A stretch of 64,000 bases of DNA from Nannobrachium achirus (Eukaryota > Chordata > Actinopteri > Myctophiformes > Myctophidae), in the NCBI GenBank assembly GCA_963921795.1, contig OY997640.1, positions 14,656,781 to 14,720,780 of the forward strand, read 5' to 3'. Positions 2,068 to 49,704 of the stretch are shown here, piece after piece. Position 1 is the stretch's first letter, and each line of letters opens with the position of its first letter. The translations under genes were made by a program, and so were the position numbers. The notes under the pieces are model-generated. The model worked only from the letters and a program-made list of their open reading frames with translations, had not been told where the DNA came from and did not search any database.

Positions 2068-2340
2068 GGTTGTGAATCACCAGTGTTGCAACTTTACAGC
2101 AGGAGATCTAGTAAAGGAAACAGCAGTGTTAGCATTATGAGTAGATATAGGTGTAGTAGGCCTATTAATAGTTGCTGCAATATAAATATGTCTTTATACT
2201 ATGACACATTTACAGAAGTGCACTTCTTTGAAATATAAGTAATTCACTAAAATATAGTAGTTAACTAAAATTTCAAGTCAAGACAAACACACATTCTGAA
2301 AACAAACTGCATACCTGATTACTTCACCAAGTCCAGAAGA

Positions 2341-2436
2341 GAGAAGTTCAACTCTCAACAACAACACAGATTAAAGTGGTACCAGACTAAACTGAGGCCT
2401 GTTAAATACACTAGGGTGTGTGTGATGGTCCAATCA
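2341..2436 (-). promoter_or_regulatory. TRIM-1 core promoter and first exon start
   Basis: On the minus strand there is an inverted CCAAT element GATTGGACCATC (2424-2435), 27 bases on a TATA-like TATTTAAC (2401-2408), 26 on GTACCACTT, and then GAGAGTTGAACTTCT (2342-2356), presumably inside exon 1. A splice-donor-like CAG|GTATGC follows at about 2310-2315. The same module with the same spacing is found before TRIM-3 and before the zinc-finger genes at 20.7 and 25.6 kb. The transcription start itself is inferred. Confidence 0.65.
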
Positions 2437-4060
2437 CAGTGGTGTATGGCATACAAACAATAGACAGAAACTGGACAACTATTGTTAAACAGCCCCCACT
2501 TAAGCCTTCACATCCCTGCAAGTTGTATCAAGTACAAAATAGTTAAGGGGGGAAAAGAAAGACAAATCTAATACATACATATTACATCTTCATACATATT
2601 AGAACAGAATCGAATAGATCTTTATTGTCATTGTCACAAGTACAACACAATTAAAAGTGCCAAACGACCAGTGCATCGCTAAAATCACTCAAAAATAGCT
2701 AAAACAATACAACAAAACATACACATAACCATACTTCCCATCATTGCACAACACCTATTGCACTTAACATGCACAGCACAGATATTTTTCCCATGCAATT
2801 AAGACGAGAATAAATAGTTTCCCCAAAATGATTAATGATAACTCCAACACAAGAAAGGAGACCACACCAGTGTAATGTCTGTTTTCTCTTAGTTGTATTA
2901 AATCAATGAGCTTTCAAAATAGTTATGTCCAGTGGTACAATAATAATGTTTCTCTCTTTTTTTTCTGAATGCAATGTAAATTCATTTTACAAATAGTACA
3001 GTATAGGCACAGAATGGTTATACATAAGTCAAATCCTGATTGGACAGTTACAGTATAACAATGGACCATGAGATGGTCTCGTCTCGTGAAGAAGCCAAGG
3101 ACGAGCTATGTTTTGGCTTCTCCTTTATCCCATGCATGTCCTGGGACATTATGGCCTAAAAGCTGGTCATCCCCTTTGCACGGACCTGCAGTCGGCACAT
3201 TCTCAGCACAATGTGTAAGTCATATGTTCCAAAACAGAAGGTTTCGTATGAAACCCTTTTTATTTAACTCTGAGAGTGTTGTCTAAATATTATATCATCT
3301 AGACATTAAAATTGTATTTTATTTGATCAATCAGTCAGTAAATTGAGACTTTAAAGCATACTTATTTATATGCGTGTCGTACAGGCCTATATCATCAGGA
3401 TTCTGACCTGATGAAGATCCTGTGAGATTGAAACATTGTTGCATTAAACACCAAAAATCCTTTTCCTGAAACTGATGTGCAGGCTCTACCGCCTTTCAGG
3501 GATGAGACTTTGCCATTGATTGGTCTACAGCTTTACTATTCACATGTAATTCAGTCAGTCAAGTAACTGCATAATGATGACGGTTCATTGTCATTAAAGT
3601 GAGTCAAGCCCATAATGATGACTCACTGGTGATTGTTTGGTCTATTGTTTTACCATTGTGTTGAAATTCCATCTGTAAGTGAGAACGCATTCACAATAGA
3701 AGGGCATCATCATAGTAGAATTACTCTGCCAGTCATAGAAAATATGCAAATGACAAAAACTGTAGTGTAGCGACTAGCTACAGACTTTATACTGTATGTA
3801 ATGGAATAATGTAGTGTAGCTATGGACTTTTAAACTGTAGTGTATGGACATAATACTGTAATATATTAATGAAATGTAGAAATTGACTGTAAACTGTAAT
3901 ATAATTGTAGCGTAGTTTGACTACTTTATACTGTAATAGAATAATGTAGAGTAGCAATGGACTTTAAACTGTATAGTATAGTGTTTATTATTAGGTGTTG
4001 AACCAATAACTGTAATGTCACCAGCACAGCATGTCTATCTTGACATACAAACATGTTTAA
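2437..4060. other. TRIM-1 upstream region, duplicated at 18.3-20.5 kb
   Basis: The region matches 18320-20494 with small indels. It contains a LINE 3' tail (2608-2790) and otherwise AT-rich unique-looking DNA. No convincing gene is present; a 33-codon reading frame at 3061-3159 is conserved in both copies but is too short to call. Confidence 0.7.
2608..2790 (-). mobile_element. LINE 3' end fragment with GACAATAAAGATC tail
   Basis: On the minus strand the stretch ends in GACAATAAAGATCTATTCGA, the form of 3' tail seen in fish non-LTR retrotransposons. Related copies occur at 5541-5700, 15110-15300 and 19040-19235, all carried by the segmental duplications, so this is one old insertion that was multiplied. 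Confidence 0.6.
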
Positions 4061-4900
4061 ATACAACCTAAATTAGTTTCAGTTGATATAAATATAAATG
4101 TAGGTATTGGACCAATACCTTATATACTTACTGTTTGTTTAGACTTACTGTTTTCCTTTTTTTTTTGTTCTTTCATTTTATATTTACATATCTACTGCAT
4201 AGTACTGTGTTCTATTCGTCTGTCATTCAATGTTATATGAGATACTTAATTGGTTTCCTGTGGAAATAATCTTAGTCTTTTCTAGGATCTCCTTTTAGTA
4301 GACCTTGTACCAGTGAACTGTACCGTCATGAAACTGTACCTTTTCCTATGCAAACTTCTAATAAAGTCTTCAAATAATCAATCAAAGACCATTACTGACA
4401 CTGAACACTAAAACAGCTGTTTTAGACAGTGTCATTTGTATACAGTTTGGAAGATGCACATGTGATATGACCACCAGCATTATTAAAGAAAAGAAAGGGG
4501 TAACTGTAACTACTATACATTTTCCGGTCATGTTTGCCACACAGACACATTTGACACATTGGCAGTTGGTTCATTACAAATAGTATGCAGTTGTTGGGGA
4601 TAATAATACAAGGGACAGACACACTTTACACAAATCCTTACTCTGTACATTAGTATCTCTCTTAAATCTGTTTATGAACTCACTTTTCAAAGTGTTTTAA
4701 TACTACTATCATGTATGATATAATATCATGTCTCTGTTACCTACCTGTCTTTGTAGGCCTATGGTTAGAAACTAGCAATAGCTCTGATCCTGTCAATGAC
4801 ATGATGATGTACAGTAAAAACACTACAAGGTTTTATTTTGCTGCATTGTTACATGATAAATGCAACGGTTTCATCTCTACATGACTTTTTGACCTGCACT
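4061..4900. other. AT-rich interval, nothing recognised
   Basis: This interval is not shared with the other copies of the unit: homology with copy 3 stops at about 4060/20494. I see no coding sequence, RNA gene or clear repeat in it. Confidence 0.5.
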
Positions 4901-4929
4901 TTTTTATAGGGATGCACCGATATAGAAAT

Positions 4930-5149
4930 GATGAATCATAAAGGTGAAAAACCCTTTAGCTGTGAAATTTGTGGCAACAGCTTTTGTCAAAAACGTGGTC
5001 TGATGCGGCACATGAAGGTTCATGCAAGGGAATAGCCCTTTAGCTGTACTGTGTGTGGCAGCCACTTTAGTCATTTTACAACTTTGAAGAACCACATGAG
5101 AATTCATGCATGGGAAGTCCCTTTAAATGCACATGCAGATTATTATTAT
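4930..5149 (+). pseudogene. C2H2 zinc-finger gene fragment (last fingers only)
   Basis: The plus strand holds the tail of a C2H2 gene: an HKGEKPFSCEIC linker and finger, then RGLMRHMKVHARE, a TAG stop at 5033-5035, and in the same frame after the stop a further intact-looking finger (CTVC ... HMRIH). It matches 14055-14340 of the zinc-finger gene at 13-14 kb. The upstream exons are missing, so this is a 5'-truncated copy. The TAG is shared with the other copy, so it predates the duplication. Confidence 0.8.
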
Positions 5150-6291
5150 TTTCAATAAGGATATGCATTTATCAGAGGTGGTCAGCTTTAATGAAGAGAT
5201 AGGCCATTCATTCAGGAAGTTGAGAATGTGTGAAATTGCTATCTGACCTTTATGTGAGAACTGCCAGAAATAATGTTTTAATTTGTGTGAACTGGTACTG
5301 ATGTATTTGAAGGATGTGTAAGGGATACAATATTGATATTTACATTACACATATGTATTAATTACGGTAATGTACAAGTTAATCCTGCAAAGGCCAAATA
5401 TGTTGTTGGAAAAAACATGCAATGGCCAATATCACCTTGTCTGTCTTCCCTTCACATAATAGGGGCCTACTGTGTTCATGTAGGAGATAACATTTGTTTT
5501 ATATTATGTTGAACATTTTCTTTAGTTGTGATGTAACTACACTGAAGTGCCAAACGATCAGTGCATCACTAAAATCATTCAATAGCTAAAATAATACAAC
5601 AAAACATACACAGATCATACTTCCCGTCATTATACAACACCTATTGCAACATGCAAAGCACAGGCAAACATGTAAAGTGATGGGTATTTTTCCGTAAGAG
5701 CAGAATAAAAGGCTAAATGCAAATATCACAGTGTCCACCAAATGGACCCTTACATTTTTGTAACTAAAACAATATAAGCACTGATATTCAGGATCTGTTT
5801 CCCTTCAGGGCTTTATAAAAAATAATAGATACAAAATAGCACGGGGTAGATAATATGATAAATAACATACAGAGATGACGGACAAAAAATGGCCAAACCC
5901 TTAAACCACACGTAAGCACTATGTCCTCTAATCATAAAACATCCATTTGGGGGGAAGGGGGGAAATTGACATATTTGACATAAATGTAAGGTGCTGTAAA
6001 GTAACCAGTTGAATTAGTAGGGGAAATAAACATGTGTTTAATGGTGAAACTTGATATGAGCCTGAGTTGCTAACCCAAATTACATGGTACCATGCAGGCA
6101 ACTGGGATGTGTTTTAAAGTTGTCTGATTGTATTGACGTTGTTGACATGAAAACAGTTTGAAACTCTACACATCATTTCTTATTTGTGTGGGTTTATAAT
6201 AGCATAATTTTCATTACAGTTTTATGGGCTAAATATTATTGCTGGGTAGAGGGGGTACTTGGATTCAATTTAAATCCATAAAAAATGCTTT
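5150..6291. other. Zinc-finger 3' flank joined to TRIM 3' flank
   Basis: Homologous to 14335-15845. It carries the 3' flank of the zinc-finger gene, a LINE tail piece (5541-5700) and a stretch leading into the GA repeat of the next TRIM copy. About 400 bases present at 14756-15160 are missing here at 5540/5541. No gene is visible. Confidence 0.7.
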
Positions 6292-6312
6292 TATCCAGCA
6301 AATGAGAATGAG

Positions 6313-6316
<4 letters not shown>

Positions 6317-6351
<35 letters not shown>
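6317..6351. repeat. (GA)n microsatellite
   Basis: GA run, the counterpart of those at 27-91 and 15867-15917. Confidence 0.95.
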
Positions 6352-6355
<4 letters not shown>

Positions 6356-6890
6356 TGTTGTTGTTTTTAGGCTCACTATTACTACTTAATTCAATGTTGG
6401 TGGATGGATGTTTATATATATATATTTTTTTAAATGAGTCTTCCAAATATGCACAGATGTACAGTAATCAGGTTGGGACAAGTCATTTAGAAGTTTTATG
6501 AAAACTTTATTAACATTCTGCAATCATACATTCATTTTGTAAACTATTATACACAGGAACCTTTTAGAGCATGTGAACCTTGAATGTGTATTCACATCAT
6601 ATAGCATTTCTAGTGAATCAAATCACTAAGTATTAGCCTCTCGTATCAGTGAATTATAAGAAATTGGCTGAGCAATACATACATTTTACACCCACATATT
6701 GACAAAACTACAAAGGAACAGAATATGTCCAGTTGTGTCCTGGTTTCACAGATTGATGTGAGGGGAGGTACATCCCAGATCCCAAAAAACGTGAAAAGTA
6801 AAACAACTAAAATGAATTTTGTATTCAGATATTGTTATATTTTATGTGTTTGGTGATGCAAATAGTTACCTATCAGTGTTGTTGTCACAT

Positions 6891-7993
6891 CTAACTGTGG
6901 TGTTCTAGTGTGACACTGACCTTCCCAGGTAACACCTTCAGAGGGAGATGCCCATAAGTAGAAATGAATGGAAATAGTCTCCTAGTGAAAGTGTGTGCAA
7001 AGGTGAGTATGTGCGTGTTAGAGTCAGGATCAGAGAATGATATCCCTCCTCTGTTCCAGTCCAGATGGACTCTGATCTTTGAAGGCTTCTGGATCACAGA
7101 GATATCAATCCCTGGCCCTGTTGAGGAGCTTGCTGTGTATCTACCGTTAACAAAGCCTAAACACCACATCATACTATTGTCTCCCTTTCTCTGGAAAGAC
7201 AACACACCCAACTCCCAGAAGTTATTGTTTCCCACCTCAACATCCCAACTGTGAATCCCAGAGTTAAATCCCTCTGAACCTAATATATTGTGTGGATATT
7301 CCAACCTCTCTGAGTTATCGTGAAGCTCTACACGCTCTCCATCAGATAACACACTGGTCAGATCATGAGACAAGTTGAGATCTGTATTGGAGGTGTTGGG
7401 GTCCAGGATCACAGGAGTGTAGGCGACAATGTCCTTCATCTTGTCCCAGACCTTGAAGGTCAGATTGCCAAGGTGTTTGGCCACGTCTATCATTGCTAAT
7501 GAGACTGGCTGTGCATTACGTAGTGTGAGCTGGACTCTTTTCACTGTGGTCTTATAGTTCTGCAGGAATAAAATGTCATCTGCCTCAACATCTTTCATGG
7601 TTTTGGCAAGAGTCTCCATCTCTCTGCTCAATCCCTCAATCTTATCCATCATCATCTGACTCTTCTGCCTCTCTTCCTCCCTCAGGGCAGAGATCCTGTC
7701 GTCCTCTTCCTGAGAAAGGAACTGGCGAATGTTCTCAAACTGTTTCTTAATCTGTGTCTCTGTGTGCAAGGCCTGGACCTTAATGCATTCTGCAGCTCCT
7801 ATATAGTTTGCTTTCAAGGAATGTAAATCCTCCAGTTTATCCTGCAAAGGCTTCTGTGATTTCTGGATGCCCTCTTTGCAACATTTTGCAGATTCGTAGA
7901 TGGGTCTGAACATGTGTCCAGAGTGTTTTTCAGAATCACAACAGACAAGACATGCCAGCTGTGCATCGTCCAGACAGAACAGCTTGAGTTTCC
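6891..7993 (-). pseudogene. TRIM35-like copy 2, lacking RING (5'-truncated chimera)
   Basis: The minus strand has an open frame from mid B-box (FCLDD ... [10 protein letters not shown]) through the coiled coil to a full PRY-SPRY that ends LEHHS, like copy 1. The first in-frame ATG is at 7913, giving 340 aa. At 7993 TRIM similarity stops abruptly inside the B-box, and the DNA on the other side is zinc-finger 3' flank (matches about 14372-14820). RING, first half of B-box, promoter and 5' UTR are therefore gone. The coding part has no frameshift and is close to copy 1. Without RING it could not be an ordinary ubiquitin ligase, and no promoter is visible, so it is most likely dead; a product from a cryptic promoter cannot be excluded. 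Confidence 0.85.
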
Positions 7994-8570
7994 CAATAAG
8001 GATAGGTACTTATCCAAGGTGGTCAGCTTAATGAAGGGATAGGCCTTTCATTCAGCAAGTTAAGAAATGGTGAAATTGCTATCTGACCTTTATGTGAGAA
8101 ATGACAGAAATAATGTTTTAATTTGTGTGAATTGGTACTGATGTATTTGAAGGATGTGTAAGGGATAACATGTTGATGTTTACACTGTACATGTATGTAT
8201 TAATTCATGTACAAGTTAACCCTGTAAAGGCCAAATATATGGATGAACATGCAATGGCCAATATCACCCTCCCTGGCTGGCTTCCCTTCACATAATAGGG
8301 GCCAATTGGGTGCATACTGTGTTCATGTAGGAGATAACATTTGTTTTATATTTTGTTGAACATTTTCTTTAGTTGTGATGTAACTACACTGAACTGATTG
8401 TTCACATCTTATTATGAACTAATAAAGTTGTGTTGGTGCTCATTGGCCTGATGGTTTGTTTTCATAACATCTGGATAGAAAGTTATCAGACACTATGTTC
8501 ACTATGTTATCAATAAGGATAATGGCATCTATCAGAAGAAGCTACGCTTAATAGAGAAATAGGCCATTCA
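7994..8570. other. Two consecutive zinc-finger 3' flank copies
   Basis: 7994-8505 matches 14372-14835. A second, more diverged copy of the start of the same flank begins at about 8510 and is interrupted at 8571 by an inserted element. No gene is present. Confidence 0.65.
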
Positions 8571-9113
8571 TTGCGACCGTCAGGTCGCAGTTACTACCAA
8601 AACCTCCACTGGCTGTCTGTCAGTCAGTCAGTCAGTCTGTCTGTCTGTCCGTCATGTCACACTTTTCCCCAACTCATATCTCTGCCACCGTTGCCCCATG
8701 CCAAACTTTGCACACACACACTCCTTGCCTGCCAATCCACAACCTCTACCCCTCCAGGGACCCCCGGAGCTCCAGGGACCCCCAGGGACCCCCTTCTGCA
8801 GCACATAAAATGCCGTAACTCGGGCTAGGAGCGACCGGGAGAGCCGGGGCCGGTACCCAAGTGTCTGCCTCGGCGGCACCAAGAGAGCCATCAACATGAA
8901 TCTGTCCCATATAGCGCCACCATCAGGCCTATTTTTTCAAACACATTTTTGGACACTGCTCCTACAGATTTTGCCCTAAAATCACACAAATCTGTACACA
9001 GTATGTCTACACTCATGTCATCAACATGGATCTTTCCCATATAGCCCCACCTTCTGGCAGATTTTTTCAAACACATTTTTGGACACATTTTGCACGCTGC
9101 GACCTGACGGTCG
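8571..9113. mobile_element. Insertion bounded by an 18-bp palindromic motif at both ends
   Basis: The segment begins with GCGACCGTCAGGTCGCAG and ends with its reverse complement CTGCGACCTGACGGTCGC (about 9096-9113). Each end can itself form a hairpin. It interrupts a copy of the zinc-finger 3' flank that resumes near 9145. Inside is a 67-base direct repeat (about 8891-8957 and 9019-9085) containing CCCATATAGC. A related hairpin head followed by similar bases occurs at 34305 and 54301. I see no transposase, so it would be non-autonomous; the superfamily is unknown. Confidence 0.55.
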
Positions 9114-9143
9114 CTTATCTCCCGATTAGGGAGTTTTACTGGT

Positions 9144-9678
9144 TTAGGAAGGTATGTGATTGCCATTTGACCAAATTGCCATTTGACCATTATGTGAGAA
9201 CTGCCTAATGCGTGTATGCATAGCAATCTATACGGTGGTCTGTGCTCATATACATGTTTAACTATGTAAAAGCTAAACCTATGGATGAAAGGTGTAACCT
9301 TTCAGATGTTGTGGCAGAATGCTAAGTATTTTCCAGTGTAAAGAATTTGAATACAAATGAATCCTAATCCTATGTTCCACACCATTCACACAATAATGTT
9401 GGGGGGCTTTATGCTCACTCCTTATCATACTAAAGGGAATACATGCTAATTAGTTGGTCCATCCATTCTGCAACAGAGCGGCACACCCTAACCCATTCTC
9501 ACCTATCCATTAACAAAGGGACAAGCATCCTAGATGAAACATTCACAACATGTGTCTTCTAACGGATTAGATAAAGATAGAGTTGTACACCCTACAACCA
9601 GAACGTTTGTGTAAACTGACACTGATTCAAAGGGGAGTAAGGGATATGTTTCACTAAAATAAGTGCAACATAGCTCTA
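9144..9678. other. Diverged zinc-finger flank and unassigned DNA
   Basis: 9145-9300 still resembles the zinc-finger 3' flank. From 9300 to 9678 I recognise nothing. Confidence 0.5.
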
Positions 9679-10636
9679 TAGGGGGAGAACGGGGTAAGAT
9701 GAACCGCTGGGTAAGATGAACCACCCCCTTTATCTTTAAAACTATACACATGAGTTGTCATTTGACCTTAAAATAAGAACACAAACATCATTTCCACCTG
9801 GCTGTGGAGTTTACAGACACCTGGGCAAAGTGGAAAGCATATTTCTAAAAAGTGTTTTTTGCTGGTCGAAGTACATTTTTGACTTTTATGGTATAATGAT
9901 TTTTATGTTAAAGCAAATGTACCCAGGTCTAAACTTATATAGCATGCATGTTGGTGATAGCCCAATCTATAAAACTATGTGAATCATTTAGCTAAAGATG
10001 AGTCTTAAGCATCAAGCTAGCCAGGTTTTGTCAAAATGGTGGCTTTGGGGCAAGATGAACCACATACCTTGGGGTAAGTTGAACTATGTGAATCACCATT
10101 CCTATTTTTTCATTAGGTCTTTGCTACTTAAATTATGCTGAATCATCTTTAATTTTGATGAATACACTAATTTAAGATACATTTTTAATATTATATTAAT
10201 AATTGCAAATATTAAAAGGTTCTGAATATTCTGAATATAATTGGTTATAATAAAAAATATGTACAGTTTAAATAACCGTAAGAAATGAAATAAGACTATT
10301 TGCAAAAGGGAAATGTGTTATTAAAATATTTCTGATAAGTAAATACATTCTTTGTTCAAGTTTAAACTGTTAAAAGTTAAGAATATCACGTGGGTCAACT
10401 TACCCCTTTACTTGGATCAACTTATCCCTCACCTGGGGCAAGTTGAACCACATGACCACTTTTTTAATATAAGTCGTATTTTTATGGTCCTTTGTCATAG
10501 ACACTTACTTAAAATTTCAAATGATAGCAGACATCCTGAAATATGTCTAGATGTTTTGAATTTACTGCCATCTCACTTTTTCTTGCTTCCAGGTCAACAT
10601 AAGCAAAAAGTGGTTAATCTTACCCAGTTCTCCCTA
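9679..10636. mobile_element. TA-flanked MITE with GGGGGAGAAC inverted repeats
   Basis: The left end GGGGGAGAACGGGGTAAGAT and the right end, read in reverse complement, GGGAGAACTGGGTAAGAT are terminal inverted repeats of about 25 bp, with TA on both sides, as for Tc1/mariner-type insertion. Inside are several GGGGYAAGWTGAACC motifs in both orientations. No transposase frame is visible, so it is non-autonomous. Confidence 0.7.
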
Positions 10637-10980
10637 ATCCAATAGTTAATTATGTCTGAGTTAGTGTTTGTTCATTAACTGGGATCTCTGTGTTACCCCA
10701 GCTCTGTATAATGGTAATTAATGGGTTAAATTGCCTGATTTGGTCAAATTGTGTACCCACCTTAAACTATATTTTATGTTTATTAAAGCGTTGGGGAGAT
10801 ATAAGAATTATAGCAATTGTCATTATTAGAATATACAAGCTTTAGCATTTAACTTTAAAAAAGAAAAAACATTTGAATAGCAACGGGTAATTTAAATGTC
10901 ACACTGTGTAGGCCTTTGATGATTATTTTTTGACATAACACAGAATTAAAATTTGTTTCAAGCAAGCATGCAAGGCAATG
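10637..10980. other. AT-rich interval, nothing recognised
   Basis: No coding sequence or repeat boundary is visible between the MITE and the LINE fragment. Confidence 0.5.
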
Positions 10981-10984
10981 TATT

Positions 10985-11445
10985 AAACCATTAAACTGTG
11001 TACTGAAGGTGGTCAAGAAAGCCCAACAGCGCCTCTACTTCCTCAGGAAACTGAAGAAAGCTGGGATGGGTCCCAAAGTCCTACGGGCTTTCTACAGGGG
11101 CACCACGGAGAGCATCTTGACTGGCTGCTTCACTGCCTGGTATGGCAGCTGCACTGACCTCAATCGCAAGGCCCTGCAGAGGGTTGTGCGGACAGCCGAA
11201 CGCATCAGTGGATGCGATCTCCCCCCAATCCAAGTATTGTACGACGAGCGCCCTGTGGAATCATGAAAGATTCTCACCATCCCAACCACAGTCTGTTCAA
11301 GATGCTGCCTCATGGAAAACGCCTATGCAGTCTCAAAGCTACCAGCAACAGACTGCAAAAGAGCTTCTTTCCACGAACAGTCAGGCACATGAACGAACTG
11401 TCAAAAACGAGAAAGATCCAGGGAAAAAGGAATCGCTAGCACCCC
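10985..11445 (+). mobile_element. L2/CR1-like LINE, end of reverse transcriptase
   Basis: The translation shows KKAQQRLYFLRKLKKAG, AFYRGTTESIL, TAWYGSC, KALQRVVRTAERI, then after a frameshift near 11260 the typical end (DSHHPNHSLFKMLPHGKR, SFFPRTVRHMN). This is the C-terminal part of the reverse transcriptase of an L2/CR1-type non-LTR element, 5'-truncated as usual. The 3' UTR continues at 12551-12910 on the other side of an inserted transposon. Dead copy. Confidence 0.8.
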
Positions 11446-11463
11446 CCCCCCCAGCCCCCAACC

Positions 11464-11555
11464 CCTTACGTTCCCTCCTTGTGAAGTTGAATTGCACCTA
11501 CTGTACATACCCCTTACGTTCCCTCCTTGTGAACTTGAATTGCACCTACTGTACA
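11464..11555. repeat. Two-copy 48-bp tandem repeat in the LINE 3' region
   Basis: The unit starting CCCCTTACGTTCCC and ending CTACTGTACATA occurs twice in a row, directly after a short poly-C tract. Confidence 0.8.
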
Positions 11556-12550
11556 TACACTCTTAAAATTGTTGGGTCAAAAACAACCCAAGTTGGTTAT
11601 TTATGTAACCCAACACGTAACACTGTTTTGGACCAGCCCAACATGGGTTATTGCAGACCAACAGGGTTGGGTTAAGGCTGTGACCCAGCATGTTGGGTTG
11701 GGATTGTACAACCAAGTAATGGGTTAAAAGTGACTTTGCTGTTGGGTTAATGTGATACTGCTGATGGGTTGGAATCTAACACCCAAAAATGGCTTAAAAG
11801 TGACCTTGTTGTTGGGATTGTACGCCCATTCACATTAAATCTATTCATTTTTTTACAGCATTTTCTTCAATGACATTTTTCATGCTTAATCTACTCAAGG
11901 AAGAATGCATGCGGAGTAAATTGTGCATTTAGTCGTGGCAATATATCACAACTTTGAACACAACAGATTATGTGGTGCTTCACATTAAAAGAACAGCAAA
12001 CCTGTTTGTATGTGTCAGTCTGGACCATCTTAGTCATGGTTTCTGTTTCTGTAAGCAACTATGTTTTTTTATATATTTTTTAATTAGGGATTATGACTGG
12101 GCTACATCCACTGCGATCATCTACAATACAATGTTGTTTTCTCTATCTAAAACCATAAAATAATGGAAAAGTTTGTAAAAAATATCTGTATGGGAGCACA
12201 GTTGCATGCTGGGTAACTGCCCACCCACTTAGTTTAACCCAATAGTGGTGCAATTCACAAACCAATGTGTTGATAGACAGAGAGGGCGGGTCTATTTTAA
12301 CCCAAGTTGGTGCAATGCAGTGAACCATGTGTTGGGTAAACTCGAATTCAAAAGCCTGTACCAACACTTGGGTTATGAACTCAATGCATTTTATCTGATG
12401 ATGTGGGCGGGCCATCCATAGCCCAACAGATGGTTTACTAATTTTAAGTATTTTTAATCCAATGTTTGGTCAAACTGACCCAACCTTTGACCCAACAGTG
12501 TCAACCCAGCAAAAGGGTTGAACATTTGACCCAACATTTTTAAGAGTGTA
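11556..12550. mobile_element. Non-autonomous DNA transposon, TIR TACACTCTTAAAA
   Basis: The ends TACACTCTTAAAATTGTTGG and, in reverse complement, TACACTCTTAAAAATGTTGG form about 25 bp of nearly perfect terminal inverted repeat. Inside are many TTGGGT/ACCCAA blocks. No transposase. It splits the LINE fragment. Target duplication is not obvious to me; hAT-like identity is a guess from the overall look. Confidence 0.75.
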
Positions 12551-12910
12551 AATGCATACTGTGAAGTTGAATTTATAAATCTGTTGCACATAGAACACTC
12601 TGTGAAGATGTTTACAAAAGTTAAGTACAGTAGCAACTACTGGAAAAATATGCTGTTGGCGTATAGAATATGCCAAACTTTCTGCACATGTACATCTGAG
12701 GATGCTCTTTTCTTTTCCTGTTGCTCTTTTTGCCTTTTGCACTCCTTTTTAGATTATTATTATTATTATTTTTAGATGTGGTTTGCTGTTATTATATTGT
12801 TTTTTTGATATACGACTGCATTGACTGAAGGATGCCAAACAAAAACAAATTTTACTCTTATGTACCTGTACAAAAGACGTAACAATAAAGTACTACCTTG
12901 AACCTTGAAT
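12551..12910 (+). mobile_element. LINE 3' UTR and tail
   Basis: This continues the LINE beyond the inserted transposon and ends in AACAATAAAGTACTACC followed by two copies of TTGAACC-like heptamer, the usual tail structure of fish L2-type elements. Confidence 0.6.
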
Positions 12911-12984
12911 TTTTAAGGTTTCCAGATAGCTGGTGTGCTATGCGAATGTTCATGTCAACATCTTAGCTCCCCCCACTTCCTTTG

Positions 12985-13045
12985 CTCTGCTCTGATTGGT
13001 TGAATTAAACGTGTGAAAAGACCCTCCACAGGTACAAGTAAAGTA
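12985..13045 (+). promoter_or_regulatory. Possible promoter/first exon of the zinc-finger gene
   Basis: CTCTGATTGGTTGAATTAAA at about 12991-13010 has an inverted CCAAT box followed by an AT-rich motif, and CCACAG|GTACAAG near 13031 could be a first donor. This is weak, positional evidence only. Confidence 0.3.
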
Positions 13046-13089
13046 CCATAGCATTGTTGTAGTCTACTCTATGTTGTTTGTGCTTTCAG

Positions 13090-14247
13090 CAAACTCAGAG
13101 ACAGATCATCATTTCCAAGGATTTGACTTCGAGAACAACTGAACAAGAAGGTAAGATTTTGCACACTGTAATTACGTGGTTGAGACTTTATACTTTAGTA
13201 ATGGTCAACGAGTTGTATTGTTTGATACAAATTATTAACCTTGAGTTAACCTAGAATTGTGTAGCCTCATTTACCCCCTTGTAATAACCAACCAGGGGAA
13301 GTTGAACAGTTCTGTCGAGAAACCAAAAGGAGGAAGATTGAGCACCAGGTTTGTTATGTGTGTCTGTACTGTATGTTGAGTAATTTCATCAAATAGTATT
13401 TATTCTCCAAATTTCTCTTAATATCTGCTTTATACAAGACACATTTTTCCCCGCATTTGATTTCACAGGTGAATGCAACAACAGTAGTGTTGAAGCCTTG
13501 TTTCGTCCCTCTATCACGTGTAAGGTTTAACAGTGGACTGTTGGATGTGAACGATGAAATAGTTCCACTGGATCTTTCCAACACCGTGGAATACACAGCT
13601 GTTCCACAAAGTAAAATGGTAAGTTGATTATAAAATATCTGTTGGATGAAGCCTTATTACACCACGTTGGACACTAGCATTAAAAACAACACAGTGTCCG
13701 ACATTTTCAATGAATTGCCAACATGTTTGAGCCTGTAGATCAATTATTTCTGCTCAATAGATTTTAAGTGTTGTTTATAAAAGGAGAGGGCCATAGTAGT
13801 TTGATCACATCAATAGCATAGTTGCTTGTGTTTAAGTGGCTTGGTAGTGGCAACAGCTTTAGTGATAATAGTAATCTGAAAAAACACACGATGATTCATA
13901 AAGGTGAAAAACCCTATAGCTGTACAATTTGTGGCAACAGTTTTAGTCAAAGTAGTCATCTAAAGGGGCACATGATGGTTCATACAGGGGAAAAACCCTT
14001 TAGCTGCACAGATTGTGACAGCAGCTTTAGTCACCTACATAGTCTGAAACTGCACATGATGAATCATAAAGGTGAAAAACCCTTTAGCTGTGAAATTTGT
14101 GGCAACAGCTTTAGTGTTAATAGCTATCTGAAAAAACACATGATGATTCATAAAGGTGAAAAACCCTTTAGTTGTGAAATTTGTGGCAACAGCTTTACTA
14201 AAAAATTTAATCTGACGCGCCACATGAAGGTTCATGCAGGGGAATAG
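13090..14247 (+). CDS. Multi-exon C2H2 zinc-finger protein (partial model)
   Basis: I propose four exons: 13090-13150, 13296-13348, 13469-13618 and 13822-14247. Each is bounded by AG and GT (CTTTCAG| ... AAG|GTAAG; CCAG| ... CCAG|GTTTG; TTTCACAG| ... ATG|GTAAGT; GCATAG|) and all joins keep the frame (phases 1, 0, 0), which is the main support. The first three encode a fingerless N-terminal region with a basic TKRRK patch. The last encodes five C2H2 units with HKGEKP/HTGEKP linkers; the first has lost its CxxC (only GSGNSFSDNSNLKKHTMIH remains), the other four are complete. A DNA-binding nuclear regulator is expected. The start codon is not found; it should lie upstream of 13090. A TAG ends the frame after HAGE, and one more degraded finger follows (14248-14334). 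It faces TRIM-3 tail to tail. Confidence 0.6.
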
Positions 14248-14340
14248 CACTTTAGCTCTACTGTGTGTGGCAGCCACTTTAGTCGTTTTACAACTTTGAA
14301 GAACCACATGAGAATTCATGCATGGGAAGTCCCTTTAAAT
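14248..14340 (+). pseudogene. Zinc finger beyond the TAG stop
   Basis: In frame after TAG the sequence reads through a finger with SxxC in place of CxxC (STVCGSHF) and an intact HMRIH, and ends at TAA near 14370. The homologous finger at 5036-5107 keeps its cysteine. The stop is shared by both copies, the Cys loss is not, as expected for decay after the stop arose. Confidence 0.7.
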
Positions 14341-15845
14341 GCACATGCAGATTATTATTATTTTCAATAAGGATATGCATTTATCAGAGGTGGTCAGCTT
14401 AATGAAGAGATAGGCCATTCATTCAGGAAGTTGAGAATGTGTGAAATTGCTATCTGACCTTTATGTGAGAACTGACAGAAATAATGTTTTAATTTGTGTG
14501 AACTGGTACTGATTTATTTGAAGGATGTGTAAGGGATACAATATTGATATTTACATTACACATATGTATTAATTACGGTAATGTACAAGTTAATCCTGCA
14601 AAGGCCAAATATGTTGTTGGAAAAAACATGCAATGGCCAATATCACCTTGTCTGTCTTCCCTTCACATAATAGGGGCCTACTGTGTTCATGTAGGAGATA
14701 ACATTTGTTTTATATTATGTTGAACATTTTCTTTAGTTGTGATGTAACTACACTGAACTGATTGTTCACATCTTATTGTGAACTAATAAAGTTGTGTTGG
14801 TGCTCATTGGCCTGATGGTTTGTTTTCATAACATCTGCATAGAAACATCAGACATGGTGGCATGTAAAGGCTAGATGTCTTTCTGACTACATGGCAGTAG
14901 TAGAGCGCAAGAGCAGAATAAAAGGCTAAATGTGGGTGGAGCATACAAACAATAGACAGAAACTGGACAACTTTTGTTTAACAGTCCCCACTTAACCCTT
15001 CACATCCCTGCAAGTCCTAATAGGAGTTGTATCACGTACACAATTGTTAAGGGGGGAAAAGAAAGACAAAGCTGATATATATACATATTATATCTTCAGA
15101 CATATTAGAACAGAATATAATAGATCTTTAATTGTCATTGTCACGACTAGTACAACAAAAGTGCCAAACGATCAGTGCATCACTAAAATCATTCAATAGC
15201 TAAAACAATACAACAAAACATACACAGATCATACTTCCCGTCATTATACAACACCTATTGCAACATGCAAAGCACAGGCAAACATGTAAAGTGATGGGTA
15301 TTTTTGTAACTAAAACAATATAAGCACTGATATTCAGGATCTGTTTCCCTTCAGGGCTTTATAAAAAATAATAGATACAAAATAGCACGGGGTAGATAAT
15401 ATGATAAATAACATACAGAGATGACGGACAAAAAATGGCCAAACCCTTAAACCACACGTAAGCACTATGTCCTCTAATCATAAAACATCCATTTGGGGGG
15501 AAGGGGGGAAATTGACATATTTGACATAAATGTAAGGTGCTGTAAAGTAACCAGTTGAATTAGTAGGGGAAATAAACATGTGTTTAATGGTGAAACTTGA
15601 TATGAGCCTGAGTTGCTAACCCAAATTACATGGTACCATGCAGGCAACTGGGATGTGTTTAAGTTGTCTGATTGTATTGACGTTGTTGACATGAAAACAG
15701 TTTGAAACTCTACACATCATTTCTTATTTGTGTGGGTTTATAATAGCATAATTTTTATTTATTTTTTTCATTACAGTTTTATGGGCTAAATATTATTGCT
15801 GGGTAGAGGGGGTACTTGGATTCAATTTAAATCCATAAAAAATGC
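14341..15845. other. Zinc-finger 3' flank to TRIM 3' flank
   Basis: Contains a possible polyadenylation signal region (AATAAAG near 14783), the LINE tail copy (15110-15300) and DNA matching 5150-6291. No gene is seen. Confidence 0.65.
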
Positions 15846-15863
15846 TTTTATCCAGCAAATGAG

Positions 15864-15866
<3 letters not shown>

Positions 15867-15917
<51 letters not shown>
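15867..15917. repeat. (GA)n microsatellite
   Basis: GA run, third member of the set at 27-91 and 6317-6351. Confidence 0.95.
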
Positions 15918-15920
<3 letters not shown>

Positions 15921-16500
15921 TGTTGTTGTTTTTAGGCTCACTATTACTACTTAATTCAATGTTGGTGGATGGATGTTTATATATATATTTTTTTTAAATG
16001 AGTCTTCCAAATATGCACAGATGTACAGTAATCAGGTTGGGACAAGTCATTTAGAAGTTTTATGAAAACGTTATTAACATTCTGCAATCATACATTCATT
16101 TTGTAAACAAGTATTATACACAGGAACCTTTTAGAGCATGTGAACCTTGAATGTGTATTCACATCATATAGCATTTCTAGTGAATCAAATCACTAAGTAT
16201 TAGCCTCTCGTATCAGTGAATTATAAGAAATTGGCTGAGCAATACATACATTTTACACCCACATATTGACAAAACTACAAAGGAACAAAATATGTCCAGT
16301 TGTGTCCTGGTTTCACAGATTGATGTGAGGGGAGGTACATCCCAGATCCCAAAAAACGTGAAAAGTAAAACAACTAAAATGTATATTGTATTCAGACATT
16401 GTTATATTTTATGTGTTTGGTGATGCAAATAGTTACCTATCAGTGTTGTTGTCACATCTAACTGTGGTGTTCTAGTGTGACACTGACCTTCCCAGGTAAC

Positions 16501-16939
16501 CAGTGCCGAGGGAAGTAGGGGTGCTGGGGGTGCGGCCGCACCCCCTCCCCCACGTCCCACCGCACCCCCCACCGCACCCCCTAAAGGGGGGTTGGGGGAA
16601 AAATATTGCCGATCGGCAAGTAGAGGCTCTGACATCAGTGGCGTGAAGTAGGAGCTATTGGCTACTTCTATTTCCAGTACAATTTCAAAATAAACATGTG
16701 TTGAATGATCGATTGTATAGACAAAAAAAAAAGAAAGGCTCTTGTTTTGAAATGTGCTTCTGGGCACTGTTTAGACAGGAAATGGCTTTCAAAGGACTTC
16801 CCTTTTAACTTGTCTAAGCGTCTGTCTCTCCGTGCGTAACATATGCGTCATGGACTCGGGTGAATTATAACAATACGGGCATAAAAGGAATATACAGAAC
16901 ACCAAGACAACACAACCTAGGCTATGAAGGCATTAAACA
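16501..16939. mobile_element. Foreign DNA replacing the PRY-SPRY of TRIM-3
   Basis: Sequence on both sides is TRIM (16458-16500 matches the very end of the gene; from 16940 the coiled-coil end), but the 439 bases here match neither other copy, and about 400 bases of SPRY are missing. The left part starts CAGTGCCGAGGG and a matching CTTCTGGGCACTG is at about 16757-16769, so a hAT-like MITE of about 270 bp may be included. It has the G/C-rich GGTGCTGGGGGTGCGG stretch common in such fish repeats. Confidence 0.65.
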
Positions 16940-17946
16940 TCTCCATCAGATAACACACTGGTCAGATCATGAGACAAGTTGAGATCTGTATTGGAGGTGT
17001 TGGGGTCCAGGATCACAGGAGTGTAGGCGACAATGTCCTTCATCTTGTCCCAGACCTTGAAGGTCAGATTGCCAAGGTGTTTGGCCACGTCTATCATTGC
17101 TAATGAGACTGGCTGTGCATTACGTAGTGTGAGCTGGACTCTTTTCACTGTGGTCTTATAGTTCTGCAGGAATAAAATGTCATCTGCCTCAACATCTTTC
17201 ATGGTTTTGGCAAGAGTCTCCATCTCTCTGCTCAATCCCTCAATCTTATCCATCATCATCTGACTCTTCTGCCTCTCTTCCTCCCTCAGGGCAGAGATCC
17301 TGTGCTCCTCTTCCTGAGAAAGGAACTGGCGAATGTTCTCAAACTGTTTCTTAATCTGTGTCTCTGTGTGCAAGGCCTGGACCTTAATGCATTCTGCAGC
17401 TCCAATATAATTTGCTTTCAAGGAATGCAAATTCTCCAGTTTATCCTGCAAAGGCTTCAGTGATTTCTGGAGGCCCTCTTTGCAACATTTTGCAGATTCG
17501 TAGATGGGTCTGAACCTGTGTCCAGTGTGTTTTTCAGAATCACAACACACAAGACATGCCAGCGGTGCATCGTCCAGACAGTACAGCTTGAGTTTCTCCC
17601 CATGCAGAGTGCAGAGAAGCTGCTCAGACCTCGCTGACAAAGATCTGTGACTTCTCTCCTCTAAGAAGTTCTCACACAGGTTCTTCAATGCTAAGTTGAT
17701 AGGCGGTTCGTCCTGGGAGCAGTTTGTTTTGCAAACAGGGCATCCCTTGTTCCACGTTGGTTTTCCTGTCCACCATTGCTGCAGACAGGCTTTACAGAAG
17801 CTGTGGCTACACGGCAGGATAACCGGATGTTTAAAGATGTCACGGCACACTGGACAGGTGAGCTCCTCTTCCTGTCGGGTCAAACAGGAAGCGACTCTGT
17901 CAGCTAGCATCACTCCCTCCTCTGGAACGTTCACTGAGGCTGACAT
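16933..17946 (-). CDS. TRIM35-like copy 3: RING-B-box-coiled coil, no SPRY
   Basis: The minus-strand frame of 337 aa is intact. RING C3HC4 at residues about 31-72 (C31, C34, C46, H48, C51, C54, C69, C72), B-box from C112 to about H150, coiled coil about 160-260, then the start of PRY ([10 protein letters not shown]). The family usually continues with about 180 residues of SPRY, but here the frame ends SDGDV-stop inside the replaced segment. RING ubiquitin-ligase activity and coiled-coil dimerisation could remain while SPRY target recognition is lost. The ATG at 17946 equals that of copy 1. Upstream there is a promoter module present in two complete copies. The copy could be a working short TRIM or a pseudogene with an undamaged 5' half. 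Confidence 0.75.
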
Positions 17947-18219
17947 GGTTGTGAATCACCAGTGTTGCAACTTTACAGCAGGAGATATAGTAAAGGAAAC
18001 AGCAGTGTTAGCATTATGAGTAGATATAGGTGTAGTAGGCCTATTAATAGTTGCTGCAATATGAATCTGTCTTTATACTATGAAACATTTACAGAAGTGC
18101 ACTTCTTTGAAATATAAGTAATTCACTAAAATATAGTAATTAACAAAAAATTCAAGTCAAGACAAACACAAATTCTGAAAACAAACTGCATACCTGATTA
18201 CTTCACCAAGTCCAGAAGA

Positions 18220-18316
18220 GAGAAGTTCAATTCTCAACAACAACACAGATTAAAGTGATACCAGACTAAACTGAGGCCTGTTAAATACACTAGGGTGTGT
18301 GTGATGGTCCAATCAC
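18220..18316 (-). promoter_or_regulatory. TRIM-3 promoter, proximal copy
   Basis: Minus-strand GATTGGACCATC (18303-18314), TATTTAAC (about 18280-18287) and GAGAATTGAACTTCT lie in the same arrangement as in TRIM-1. Confidence 0.65.
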
Positions 18317-18540
18317 AGTGGTGGGTGGAGCATACAAACAATAGACAGAAACTGGACAACTATTGTTTAACAGCCCCCACTTATGAATCTGTCTTTATAC
18401 TATGAAACATTTACAAAAGTGCACTTCTTTGAAATATAAGTAATTCACTAAAATATAGTAATTAACTAAAAATTCAAGTCAAGACAAACACAAATTCTGA
18501 AAACAAACTGCATACCTGATTACTTCACCAAGTCCAGAAG

Positions 18541-18730
<190 letters not shown>

Positions 18731-18940
18731 GTGGGTGGAGCATACAAACAATAGACAGAAACTGGACAACTATTGTTTAACAGCCCCCACTTATGAATCT
18801 GTCTTTATACTATGAAACATTTACAGAAGTGCACTTCTTTGAAATATAAGTAATTTACTAAAATATAGTAGTTAACTAAAAATTCAAGTCAAGACAAACA
18901 CAAATTCTGAAAACAAACTGCATACCTGATTACTTCAACT

Positions 18941-20426
18941 ATTGTTTAACAGCCCCCACTTAAGCCTTCACATCCCTGCAAGTTGTATCAAGTACAAAAT
19001 AGTTAAGGGGGGAAAAGAAAGACAAATCTTATACATACATATTAGAACAGAATCGAATAGATCTTTATTGTCATTGTCACAAGTACAACACAATTAAAAG
19101 TGCCAAACGATCAGTGCATCACTAAAATCACTCAAAAATAGCTAAAACGATACAATACAACAAAACATACACATAACCATACTTCCCATCATTGCACAAC
19201 ACCTATTGCACTTAACATGCACAGCACAGATATTTTCCCCATGCAATTAAGACGAGAATAAATAGTTTCCCCAAAATGATTAATGATAACTCCAACACAA
19301 GAAAGGAGACCACACCAGTGTAATGTCTGTTTTCTCTTAGTTGTATTAAATCAATGAGCTTTCAAAATAGTTATGTCCAGTAATAATGTTTCTCTCTTTT
19401 TTTCTGAATGCAATGTAATTTCATTTTACAAATAGTACAGTATAGGCACAGAATGGTTATACATAAGTCAAATCCTGATTGGACAGTTACAGTATAACAA
19501 TGGACCATGAGATGGTCTCGTCTCGTGAAGAAGCCATGGACGAGCTATGTTTTGGCTTCTCCTTTATCCCATGCATGTCCTGGGACATTATGGCCTAAAA
19601 GCTGGTCATCCCCTTTGCACGGACCTGCAGTCGGCACATTCTCAGCACAATGTGTAAGTCATATGTTCCAAAACAGAAGGTTTCGTATGAAACCCTTTTT
19701 ATTTAACTCTGAGAGAGTCTAAATATTATATCATCTAGACATTAAAATTGTATTTTATTTTATCAATCAGTCAGTAAATTGAGACTTTAAAGCATACTTA
19801 TTTATATGCGTGTCGTACAGGCCTATATCATCAGGATTCTGACCTGATGAAGATCCTGTGAGATTGAAACATTGTTGCATTAAACACCAAAAATCCTTTT
19901 CCTGAAACTGATGTGCAGGCTCTACCTCCTTTCAGGGATGAGACTTTGCCATTGATTGGTCTACAGCTTTACTATTCACATGTAATTCAGTCTGTCAAGT
20001 AACTGCATAATGATGACGGTTCATTGTCATTAAAGTGAGTCAAGCCCATAATGATGACTCACTGGTGATTGTTTTACCATTGTGTTGTAATTCCATCTGT
20101 AAGTGAGAACGCATTCACAATAGAAGGGCATCATCATAGTAGAATTACTCTGCCAGTCATAGAAAATATGCAAATGACAAAAACTGTAGCGTAGCGACTA
20201 GCTACAGACTTTATACTGTAATGGAATAATGTAGTGTAGCTATGGACTTTTAAACTGTAATGGGATACTGTAGTGTATGGACATATACTGTAATATATTA
20301 ATGAAATGTAGAAATTGACTGTAAACTGTAATGTAATTGTAGCATAGATTGACTACTTTATACTGTAATAGAATAATGTAGAGTAGCAATGGACTTTAAA
20401 CTGTATAGTATAGTGTTTATTATTAG
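18941..20426. other. TRIM-3 upstream region, duplicate of 2.5-4.0 kb
   Basis: Holds the LINE tail copy (19040-19235) and AT-rich DNA. No gene is seen, apart from the short conserved frame 19500-19598 mentioned for copy 1. Confidence 0.65.
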
Positions 20427-20745
20427 GTGCTGAACCAATAACTGTAATGTCACCAGCACAGCATGTCTATCTTGACATACAAACATGTTTAAAATGTATT
20501 TATTTCACCCCTTTGTGCCAGGGAAACATACAGTACATCTTCATTATAAGAAATAACTGTTCAGAATCTACAGCTGGGTAGGCTGCAGATAACCAATACA
20601 CCAACATAGCCAGCGCAAGTGTATGATTATCAGAACAGATACAATAACCCCCCCCCCCCCATATTTGCAGTGATCTGAAGGGTTAAGTGGGGGGAGGAAT
20701 TGGCCAGTTTCATTCTATTGTTGGTCTCTCCCTGAATCTCACTCT

Positions 20746-20837
20746 GATTGGGCCATCAGGGCCCTTTGTCAGTATTTAACAAGAGTTTGTTCTGCTTTGT
20801 ACCACTTGAATCTCTGCTAGCTGAGAGCTGAACTTCT
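20746..20837 (+). promoter_or_regulatory. Promoter of zinc-finger gene, unit 1
   Basis: GATTGGGCCATC (20746-20757), TATTTAAC (20773-20780), GTACCACTTGAATCT (from 20799) and GAGAGCTGAACTTCT (20823-20837) repeat the TRIM promoter module, with spacings 27, 26 and 24 against 27, 26 and 26 in TRIM-1. It sits about 70 bases before the ATG at 20908. Confidence 0.75.
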
Positions 20838-20907
20838 GCTTTCTGCACTAGCTGAAGCTGTCAGATATTTTGTGCTAGTATCAGTCTAGTGGGGCAGGTT
20901 TTGAGTT

Positions 20908-22392
20908 ATGGCTTTACTACAAACAATGAAAGCCTTGGTCAACCAGAGACTATCTGCAGCTGCTGAAGAGATATTTGGGATTGTTGAAAGAATCCTAGCA
21001 GAGTACCAGGAAGAAACTTCCCATTACAAGCAAGACATCGACCGCCAACAGAGACTACTGGATACACAGAGAGCAGGTTGGTAAGAAAAAAAGACAAAAT
21101 AAATGTAATGTAATCTGGATTTAAATAGTTTCCACATTATTTTGTTATTATTTTGTTGTCTTCTGGAAGGCATTCCCCCGGATTAGAGTTCGGAAAGCTG
21201 CATGTGAATGAATTCTCAGGCGAAAAGTTTGGTGCTCGGAGCCAGTGTGGACCAGCCTTTAAATCAAAATACAGCCCAAAAGTGTAGTAACATTCAAACA
21301 TGTTAATGGCTTTATTATGTTTCATATTTTTGCCTAGACTTCCTGCACTTCCCAGTGTGTAGAGAGGAGGTATTCCCTGAGCAGCAGGAGAGGACCTCCA
21401 GAGTGGTACGGGAGGAACCAGAGGTCCCACAGATTAAAGAGGAACAGGAGGAGCTACTTCAAAGATCGGAGGATGCTGATGCTTTAACGTTGAAATTACT
21501 AACAGTGAAAAGTGAAGATTATGATGAAAACATGACAGACTACATGCACCTCCCTTTGTGTAAAGAGGACGTTTCCTCTGAACAGCAGGAGTGGACCCCT
21601 GGTCTAGTACCAGAAGAACCGGAGCCTCCACAGATGAAAGAGGAACACAATGAGCTACTTCAAAGGCAAGAGGAGAAAGGTGGGTCAACATTGGCATCAC
21701 TTTCGGTGAAACGTGAGGATACTGATGAAAACTTAGAGACAGAGCCTTTAGCCAACACCTCGTCTCAACAAATGGAAACACAAGCTTATGTAGAGGACTG
21801 TGGAACATCACAACCAACTAGTGGTTGTCAGATCCTATCACCGCACGGTTCAGAATCTGACACTGAAGACAGTGATGACTGGGATTGGGCTGAGACCAGG
21901 GATGGTTTAAACACACTGGAATCACACAAGACACACACTGTCGGAGGAAAGAGCGACCAGCTGTTCCGTGACATCAAATCACCAAAGCAAAGCCACACAG
22001 AGAAGAAATGTTTTAGTTGCATAGATTGTGGCAAAATGTTTAAACAAAAGATACACCTGAAAACTCATACAATGATTCATACAGGGGAAAGGCCCTTTAC
22101 TTGTACAATTTGTGAGAAATGCTTTAGTCGAAAGAGTGATCTAAAATCACACATGACATCTCATACAAGGGAAAGGCCCTACACATGTACAGTCTGTGGC
22201 AAAGGCTGTAGTCGAAAGGTTGATCTAAAATCACACATGATGTCTCACACAGGGGAAAAACCCTTTACTTGTCCAGTTTGTGGCAAAGGCTGTAATCATA
22301 GTGGTCAGCTGAACCGCCATATGAGGACTCATACTGGGGACAAGCCCTTTACATGTGCATGTGGTTTGGTGCATTTTAACCAAGCTTCTTAG
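20908..22392 (+). CDS. Two-exon C2H2 zinc-finger protein (407 aa), unit 1
   Basis: Exon 1 is 20908-21076 (56 codons plus one base; donor GCAG|GTTGGT) and exon 2 is 21338-22392 (acceptor TTTTTGCCTAG|). The join makes one Asp codon. The N-terminus (MKALVNQRLSAAAEEIFGIV ... ) is the conserved start of a large fish family of zinc-finger proteins. Next is an acidic region with two repeats of PQ(I/M)KEE..ELLQR and four sumoylation-type sites (IKEE, VKSE, MKEE, VKRE). Residues about 281-397 hold four C2H2 fingers with HTGE(R/K)PF linkers, and a truncated fifth (CACGLVHFNQAS-stop). Fingers 3 and 4 have Cys (KGC) where the family has Phe. A nuclear DNA-binding regulator is expected; target unknown. 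The alternative donor 4 bases downstream would bring a stop, which fixes the model. Confidence 0.88.
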
Positions 22393-24037: not shown

Positions 24038-24121
24038 TAATATGTTATGCTCTGTTGATGAATTGAATACATACTGGAAACAAGTCCTCAGGCCTTTTTG
24101 TGTTAAATCCTTTTAGCCCAA

Positions 24122-25296: not shown

Positions 25297-25615
25297 GTGC
25301 TGAACCAATAACTGTAATGTCACCAGCACAGCATGTCTATCTTGACATACAAACATGTTTAAAATGTATTTATTTCACCCCTTTGTGCCAGGGAAACATA
25401 CAGTACATCTTCATTATAAGAAATAACTGTTCAGAATCTACAGCTGGGTAGGCTGCAGATAACCAATACACCAACATAGCCAGCGCAAGTGTATGATTAT
25501 CAGAACAGATACAATAACCCCCCCCCCCCCATATTTGCAGTGATCTGAAGGGTTAAGTGGGGGGAGGAATTGGCCAGTTTCATTCTATTGTTGGTCTCTC
25601 CCTGAATCTCACTCT

Positions 25616-25707
25616 GATTGGGCCATCAGGGCCCTTTGTCAGTATTTAACAAGAGTTTGTTCTGCTTTGTACCACTTGAATCTCTGCTAGCTGAGAGCTG
25701 AACTTCT
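25616..25707 (+). promoter_or_regulatory. Promoter of zinc-finger gene, unit 2
   Basis: Base-for-base copy of the module at 20746-20837. Confidence 0.75.
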
Positions 25708-25777
25708 GCTTTCTGCACTAGCTGAAGCTGTCAGATATTTTGTGCTAGTATCAGTCTAGTGGGGCAGGTTTTGAGTT

Positions 25778-49635: not shown

Positions 49636-49704
49636 GCCGTTAGCTTAGCACACCAGCAAACTTTTCACCTCGAAAATAAGTCTGGTTACGCTGGGCCCAT
49701 AACC

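Follow-up and report, generated by a model that had tools for sequence, protein, structure and literature searches.

A putative promoter module common to a TRIM and a zinc-finger gene subfamily in the genome of Nannobrachium achirus

Teleost genomes contain expansions of TRIM genes with a B30.2 domain (finTRIM and relatives), and capture of a promoter by duplication of that promoter together with its 5' exon is a general mechanism. In zebrafish, TATA-type zinc-finger (ZNF) genes have been described as an early "sharp peak" that precedes almost all zygotic mobile-element transcription (PMC10547256), the earliest genes to become active include ZNFs located on chromosome 4 (PMC6370886, PMC5690287), and first-wave promoters have been reported for the chromosome 4 cluster (PMC10695386). 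Here we analyze a stretch of 64,000 nucleotides from the fish Nannobrachium achirus (the window; OY997640.1, positions 14,656,781 to 14,720,780), which is part of contig C3 in a 1.66-Gb genome, and in which one sequence module precedes both TRIM and ZNF genes. An initial annotation, made from the sequence alone, had proposed that a promoter was captured and then spread with the gene cluster, placing the two families under one expression program.

The four sequence boxes on which that proposal was based are present, at the reported places and in the reported order, in TRIM-1, TRIM-3 and two ZNF copies, with exact matches in TRIM-1 and both ZNF copies; in TRIM-3 the third and the fourth box each differ at one position. 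Their start-to-start spacings are likewise as first described, 27, 26 and 26 in TRIM-1 and 27, 26 and 24 in both ZNF copies, and those of TRIM-3 (27, 26 and 26) equal TRIM-1. When three of the boxes were searched singly, with mismatches, their numbers in the window were near chance (10 vs 4.4 expected, 11 vs 9.0, and 5 vs 3.9), and the exact 15-mer GTACCACTTKAATCT had 5 matches in the genome vs 4 for the reversed control, all 5 within 132 kb (C3:14.55-14.68 Mb). Alignment of the whole module gave a local score of 72 between TRIM-1 and ZNF copy 1, against 28 for the best of 2000 dinucleotide shuffles. The extent of 92-95 bp given initially proved too short: the likeness between TRIM and ZNF modules is continuous over ~180 bp, beginning above the first reported box (TAAGTGGGGG, CCAGTTTC, CTATTGTT) and running to a TCAG in the leader, after which the TRIMs have a GT donor and the ZNF leader continues to the ATG within the same stretch. 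The observation is real, beyond chance, and wider than first reported.

A profile of the module found four full copies in the window, with E-values of 9e-39 to 3e-54, these or near-identical copies being part of the profile itself. The TRIM-1 module (2307..2494, minus strand) contains an inverted CCAAT box, TATTTAAC, a predicted initiator at ~2377 and a 5' leader that stops at a GT splice donor. The other three, delimited by their profile matches, belong to TRIM-3 (18186..18375, minus strand), ZNF copy 1 (20693..20869, plus strand, predicted initiator ~20804) and ZNF copy 2 (25563..25739, plus strand).

The module is best explained as a compact promoter for RNA polymerase II, in which the boxes would represent an inverted CCAAT box (one or two per module), the TATA variant TATTTAA, an initiator (CACTT) placed ~31 bp further on, and a 5' leader that is conserved. 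In 42 of the 49 distinct modules that fit the search pattern, the proximal ATTGG (inverted CCAAT) precedes the TATTTA word by 25-28 bp; 47 have a CAC initiator, and in 42 of these the initiator A is 31 or 32 bp past the first T of TATTTA. Spacing of this kind characterizes TATA-initiator promoters. In a 39-module set, 22/25 ZNF modules have a pair of CCAAT words, as a rule near -70 and -25 relative to the TATA word (one word in the other 3), and the TRIM modules of the same set have one word in 10/14 cases, two in 3/14 and none in 1/14. The CCAAT word would be expected to bind NF-Y, which in zebrafish is maternally supplied and acts at the blastula stage (PMC6023610). Reading the word GCCATCA as a Nanog site was dropped, as the literature listed for it offered no usable support. 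An Rfam scan of 30 module loci yielded no RNA family at gathering score.

The whole-genome search for further copies that the initial annotation had suggested showed that the module occurs far outside the window cluster. In these searches, scoring was confined to the best 40 or 150 of as many as 2256 candidates. The TRIM-1 module retrieved 45 matches on C3, C13 and C15 (best 40 of 193 candidates scored), the window ZNF module 41 on C3, C15, C1, C4, C13 and C470 (best 40 of 233), a ZNF module from C1 40 matches (best 40 of 554; 36 on C1, 3 on C470 and 1 on C23), and a TRIM module from C4 41 matches on C4, C15, C6, C3 and C13 (best 40 of 2256). The 15-mer core STGATTGGRCCATCA had 334 matches in the genome vs 2 for its reversed control, and all 100 of the matches listed lie on C1; the concentration of ZNF modules on this contig is mainly at 68-90 Mb (36/40 scored matches and all 100 core matches listed). 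A TRIM-type 3' box, TGTTGTTRAGAGYTGAACTT, had 80 matches vs 0 for the control (C3 8, C4 1, C6 2, C13 53, C15 16), all of them inside regions with TRIM RING exons, as judged by region and not box by box. Overall, TRIM modules were met on six large contigs (C1, C3, C4, C6, C13, C15) and ZNF modules on ten large contigs and one small one (besides C3, these are C1, C4, C5, C7, C10, C11, C13, C18, C23 and the small C470).

The copies checked lie mainly at gene starts. Of 66 distinct full cores (L001-L065), 52 are followed by a TRIM RING exon after 374-706 nt and 10 by a ZNF first exon after 118-190 nt; the other 4, all on C13, are without either gene type by the words used, one of them (C13:63.762) having a RING match with one stop ~0.5 kb downstream. 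Similarly, of 27 core matches examined on C1 (a scattered, non-random choice from the 100 listed), 24 show the module immediately in front of a ZNF first exon, with substitutions in some and a damaged frame in one; 2/27 lack a module and 1/27 shows a truncated module without a recognised exon. The module thus does not occur mostly away from gene starts, and since the copies lie at gene starts we rejected the idea of an ordinary dispersed repeat. Further modules were seen at a TRIM (C6:17.200), at ZNFs (C13:65.755 and C10:12.85), and at C6:17.195, where no TRIM was recognised in 1.4 kb. Extrapolating from these samples and the count of 334, there would be hundreds of module-bearing ZNFs. No third gene family with the module was met among the copies sampled.

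Among the clades sampled, the module is restricted to one ZNF subfamily, with a MALLQTLK-type first exon, and one TRIM subfamily. Sampling 20 other ZNF first exons from 150 scored revealed the module in 6 (E 5e-50 to 4e-28), all of the M(A/D)LLQ(T/I) type; 2 further LLQ-type exons and all 12 that begin otherwise had no module in ~500 bp upstream. It was also found at ZNFs on C23 and C7:0.31 and on a 201-bp piece at C470. A MALLQTLKSFV-type gene at C1:46.8 is without the module, as is the gene at C1:39.4 even in longer upstream DNA. On the TRIM side, 2/20 other RING exons sampled from 150 scored carry it, in the C6:17.66 array (88% RING identity to the query) and at C1:46.82 (80%). The TRIMs at C20:43.98 (79% RING identity) and C6:36.23 (78%) and the other 16 had no module within 1.1 kb upstream, a distance beyond which a promoter would escape detection.

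In the window itself, the genes behind the modules bear out the proposal that unrelated proteins stand under one module, with homologous promoter and leader preceding unrelated coding sequence. The first coding exon of ZNF copy 1 (MALLQTMKALVNQRLSAAAEEIFG...) occupies 20908..21085 on the plus strand (right end approximate), followed by an open reading frame (ORF) of C2H2 fingers at 21307..22392 (stop to stop), and the finger ORF of copy 2 lies at 26177..27262 (plus strand, stop to stop). ZNF exon 1 matched no Pfam family at 0.001. This gene is tandemly duplicated (window 20400-30130) in a 4.87-kb unit with 99.75% identity over 4.8 kb, and the two copies therefore count as one observation. TRIM-1 and TRIM-3 are close paralogues. 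The RING-containing ORF of TRIM-1 is at 1663..2076 (minus strand), with its PRY/SPRY part in another frame at 618-1781, and the RING/B-box ORF of TRIM-3, at 16933..17955 (minus strand), ends early in PRY. Pfam detected RING and B-box on 16933-17955 and PRY and SPRY on 618-1781, with a coiled coil below cut-off; at four neighboring TRIM copies on C3 there are RING-containing open frames of 486 aa, read as frames outside the Pfam scan. Partial modules also occur on the minus strand. A duplicated module upstream of TRIM-3 was found by profile and alignment as a 3' half (18508..18619) and a 5' half (18705..18786); a long (CA)n expansion (18619-18705) splits it between its CCAAT and TATA parts. A further fragment of the module 5' part was aligned at 18936..18970, and a solo 5' fragment lies at 14932..14986 by profile and 14941-15002 by pairwise alignment.

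Elsewhere in the genome, two TRIM arrays were recorded. The tandem array at C15:63.66-63.76 Mb (L039-L056) has many 3283-bp units carrying the module and a short TRIM ORF, mostly of 177 aa, that covers the RING and an apparent B-box. At C13:63.36-63.79 Mb (L015-L035), modules form head-to-head pairs, many ~970 bp apart, and on the plus strand the RING ORF of most copies is just 91 aa long.

We built trees from module rows hand-picked for diversity, with duplicates removed. With 42 modules, the TRIMs form one side of a branch (92/91), the C3 ZNFs lie between the two groups, and the C3 TRIM modules nest with those of C13 (95/92 and 98/94). A 39-module tree with more chromosomes, from which matches <140 bp were left out, places the widespread ZNFs on one side at 100/100. 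The module of the window's C3 ZNF is the ZNF version nearest TRIM, keeping a AAGTGGGGG block that is absent from C1-type ZNF modules; at the same time the words GCCAGTTTC and TCTCTG are common to C3 and C1-type ZNFs, where most TRIMs have TCCAGTTTC and TCTGTG. A search for intermediate modules with CACTTKAATCTCTGC gave 10 matches (control 1), of which 3 were the known C3 ZNFs, and the other 7, when examined, included 1 module, at another ZNF. The first-exon tree of the ZNFs requires three changes of module state; its module-bearers are not one clade, which calls for either losses (e.g. in MALLQTLKSFV-type genes) or two gains. The TRIM RING tree, in which row L015 is a rearranged copy, allows a single clade of module-bearers (approximately unbiased (AU) test, p 0.427).

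These results leave part of the initial interpretation standing. A promoter shared by descent between two unrelated families is borne out by the alignment, the shuffles and the position at gene starts, while spread with the cluster finds no support, given that the module is on many large contigs and that its trees split mainly by gene family. We consider it probable that there were one or very few old promoter transfers between TRIM and ZNF genes, followed by separate expansion of each family; most simply, the promoter would have been transferred once, long ago, and then lost from some ZNFs, or transferred twice. In such a history it would have passed once or very few times between the ancestors of one ZNF subfamily and one TRIM subfamily. 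It may have gone from ZNF to TRIM through a duplication that took in the promoter and 5' leader, the TRIM coding exon being spliced to a donor just past that leader. Each family would then have multiplied by gene duplication, every copy with its own promoter, leaving about 80 TRIM-type modules and, extrapolating, ZNF genes in the hundreds under one proximal promoter.

Several observations weigh against this history or its extensions. With the wider sampling of 39 modules the TRIM branch reaches only 52/72, and the C3 ZNF falls on the TRIM side of the 100/100 branch, which leaves room for a second exchange. Joining the C3 TRIM and ZNF modules in one clade costs 16.1 and 11.7 log units; this grouping is disfavored, though the AU test does not reject it (p 0.167 and 0.137), and the first-exon tree does reject the module-bearing ZNFs as one clade (AU p 0.0013). 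The transcription factor sites are readings of short words. A start codon context is common to the ZNF subclades by eye, but the argument for direction is weak, because the likeness of ZNF leaders was read by eye and the leader length from module to ATG varies. Finally, the TRIM copies of the window (618-2076, 6891-8009, 16933-17955) look damaged, TRIM-1 being spread over two frames and TRIM-2 lacking its RING part, so that a promoter held in common does not, in this case, have to imply that the proteins act alike.

Transfer from ZNF to TRIM is only weakly favored. That it went from TRIM to ZNF, or occurred twice, is possible though doubtful: the rejection of one clade by the ZNF first-exon tree when the TRIM RING tree allows one, and the place of the C3 ZNF on the TRIM side, point this way, whereas ZNF copies seem more numerous and on more large contigs (10 vs 6), which fits an older presence in ZNFs and is no proof of it. 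A more local scenario, in which the C3 ZNFs received their promoter from a neighboring TRIM, or the reverse, by capture or gene conversion within the C3 cluster, would make the likeness mainly a local one. TRIM and ZNF copies are indeed interleaved at C3:14.54-14.68 Mb, the C3 ZNF module with its AAGTGGGGG block is the one nearest TRIM, and the AU test tolerates a C3 clade. Yet ZNFs and TRIMs of many other contigs also have the module, the C3 TRIM modules nest with those of C13, and the C3 ZNF shares ZNF-type words with the C1-type ZNFs, so that we judge this scenario unlikely.

Insertion of a transposable element that contained the module could have given a promoter to both families, and would be in keeping with many near-identical copies on many chromosomes. 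Such an origin is nevertheless very unlikely, as 24/27 and 62/66 copies stand immediately in front of one of the two gene types, the 80 TRIM-type boxes are all located in RING-exon regions (though some have no recognised TRIM nearby), the copies follow gene arrays with near-fixed units of ~9.45 kb and ~3.28 kb, and no third gene family was met. Convergence would require that two unrelated promoters were assembled from the same boxes; CCAAT, TATA and initiator are common promoter elements, and single boxes in the window are near chance. The likeness, however, extends between the boxes and into the leader, with many invariant columns outside any known box, and together the continuous alignment and the shuffle test (0/2000 as good) make convergence extremely improbable.

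Apart from the TRIM and ZNF genes, the window has C1q-like ORFs at 40295-40612 (by Pfam) and 60279-60596 (by eye), which may be part of one larger duplication, and minus-strand ORFs at 44341-45376 and 49117-49644 that resemble, by eye, pieces of retrotransposon gag/protease.

A common expression program of the TRIM and ZNF genes, perhaps at zygotic genome activation by analogy with the TATA-type ZNFs of zebrafish, is plausible; a shared proximal promoter makes a shared program likely and does not in itself show it. The fuller version, namely that a TRIM gene captured an early-embryonic ZNF promoter, and that hundreds of DNA-binding ZNFs and dozens of TRIMs on many chromosomes fire together at zygotic genome activation in a joint defense against mobile elements held together by the copied promoter and not by linkage, is speculative, and we think it rather more doubtful than not. 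Co-expression of the two families can be directly tested with ordinary embryo expression data, because each member has a readable copy of the same promoter. Were co-expression true, a whole arms-race gene family could be recruited into the program of another family by the copying of one promoter, and fish TRIM expansions would be tied to early-embryonic genome defense.

We also compared the module with the promoter of miR-430, a microRNA family of fishes (PMC10417697), in the same genome. There is no homology between the two (best profile match E 2.3, L134/L135), and this negative profile search gives no direct link of the module to a known early promoter; by eye, a CCAAT word and CTATTTAA can be read in the miR-430 unit, a likeness confined to parts. 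The miR-430 array is very large, with 1077 genome matches to a mature-sequence pattern (control 0); 99 of the 100 listed are on C20, from ~59.38 Mb (L134, L135), and 1 is on C7. Its units of ~814 bp hold several Rfam miR-430 precursors, with 13 Rfam matches in two stretches. A first, stricter miR-430c pattern had 0 matches in the genome.

Sharing of a promoter between TRIM and ZNF genes appears to be undescribed as far as titles and the beginnings of abstracts go, subscription literature lying mostly outside this scope. No TRIM genes under a promoter of this sort are mentioned in the accessible parts of PMC10547256, PMC6370886 and PMC5690287, and those of PMC11075544 and PMC12722812 name no TRIM gene of this kind.

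The ZNF genes studied here resemble the embryonic ZNFs of zebrafish in forming a very large family concentrated on part of one chromosome, with a conserved 5' end and a TATA-type promoter. Two traits of the zebrafish sharp-peak genes are found here, a recognisable TATA box whose spacing to the initiator is fixed (start sites being predicted) and a large array of ZNF genes concentrated on one chromosome region. The genes described here differ from the zebrafish genes in that the first exon is of the VNERLSAAAEEIF type and the promoter is common to a TRIM family. The TRIM genes, for their part, are like the teleost B30.2 expansions (finTRIM and relatives) in having RING, B-box and PRY/SPRY and in their lineage-specific expansion; the module was found only on close relatives within one clade. 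The arrangement as a whole is like promoter capture by duplication, one promoter and leader standing before unrelated coding sequences, and differs from the usual case in that both lines are large multi-chromosome families that keep the promoter.

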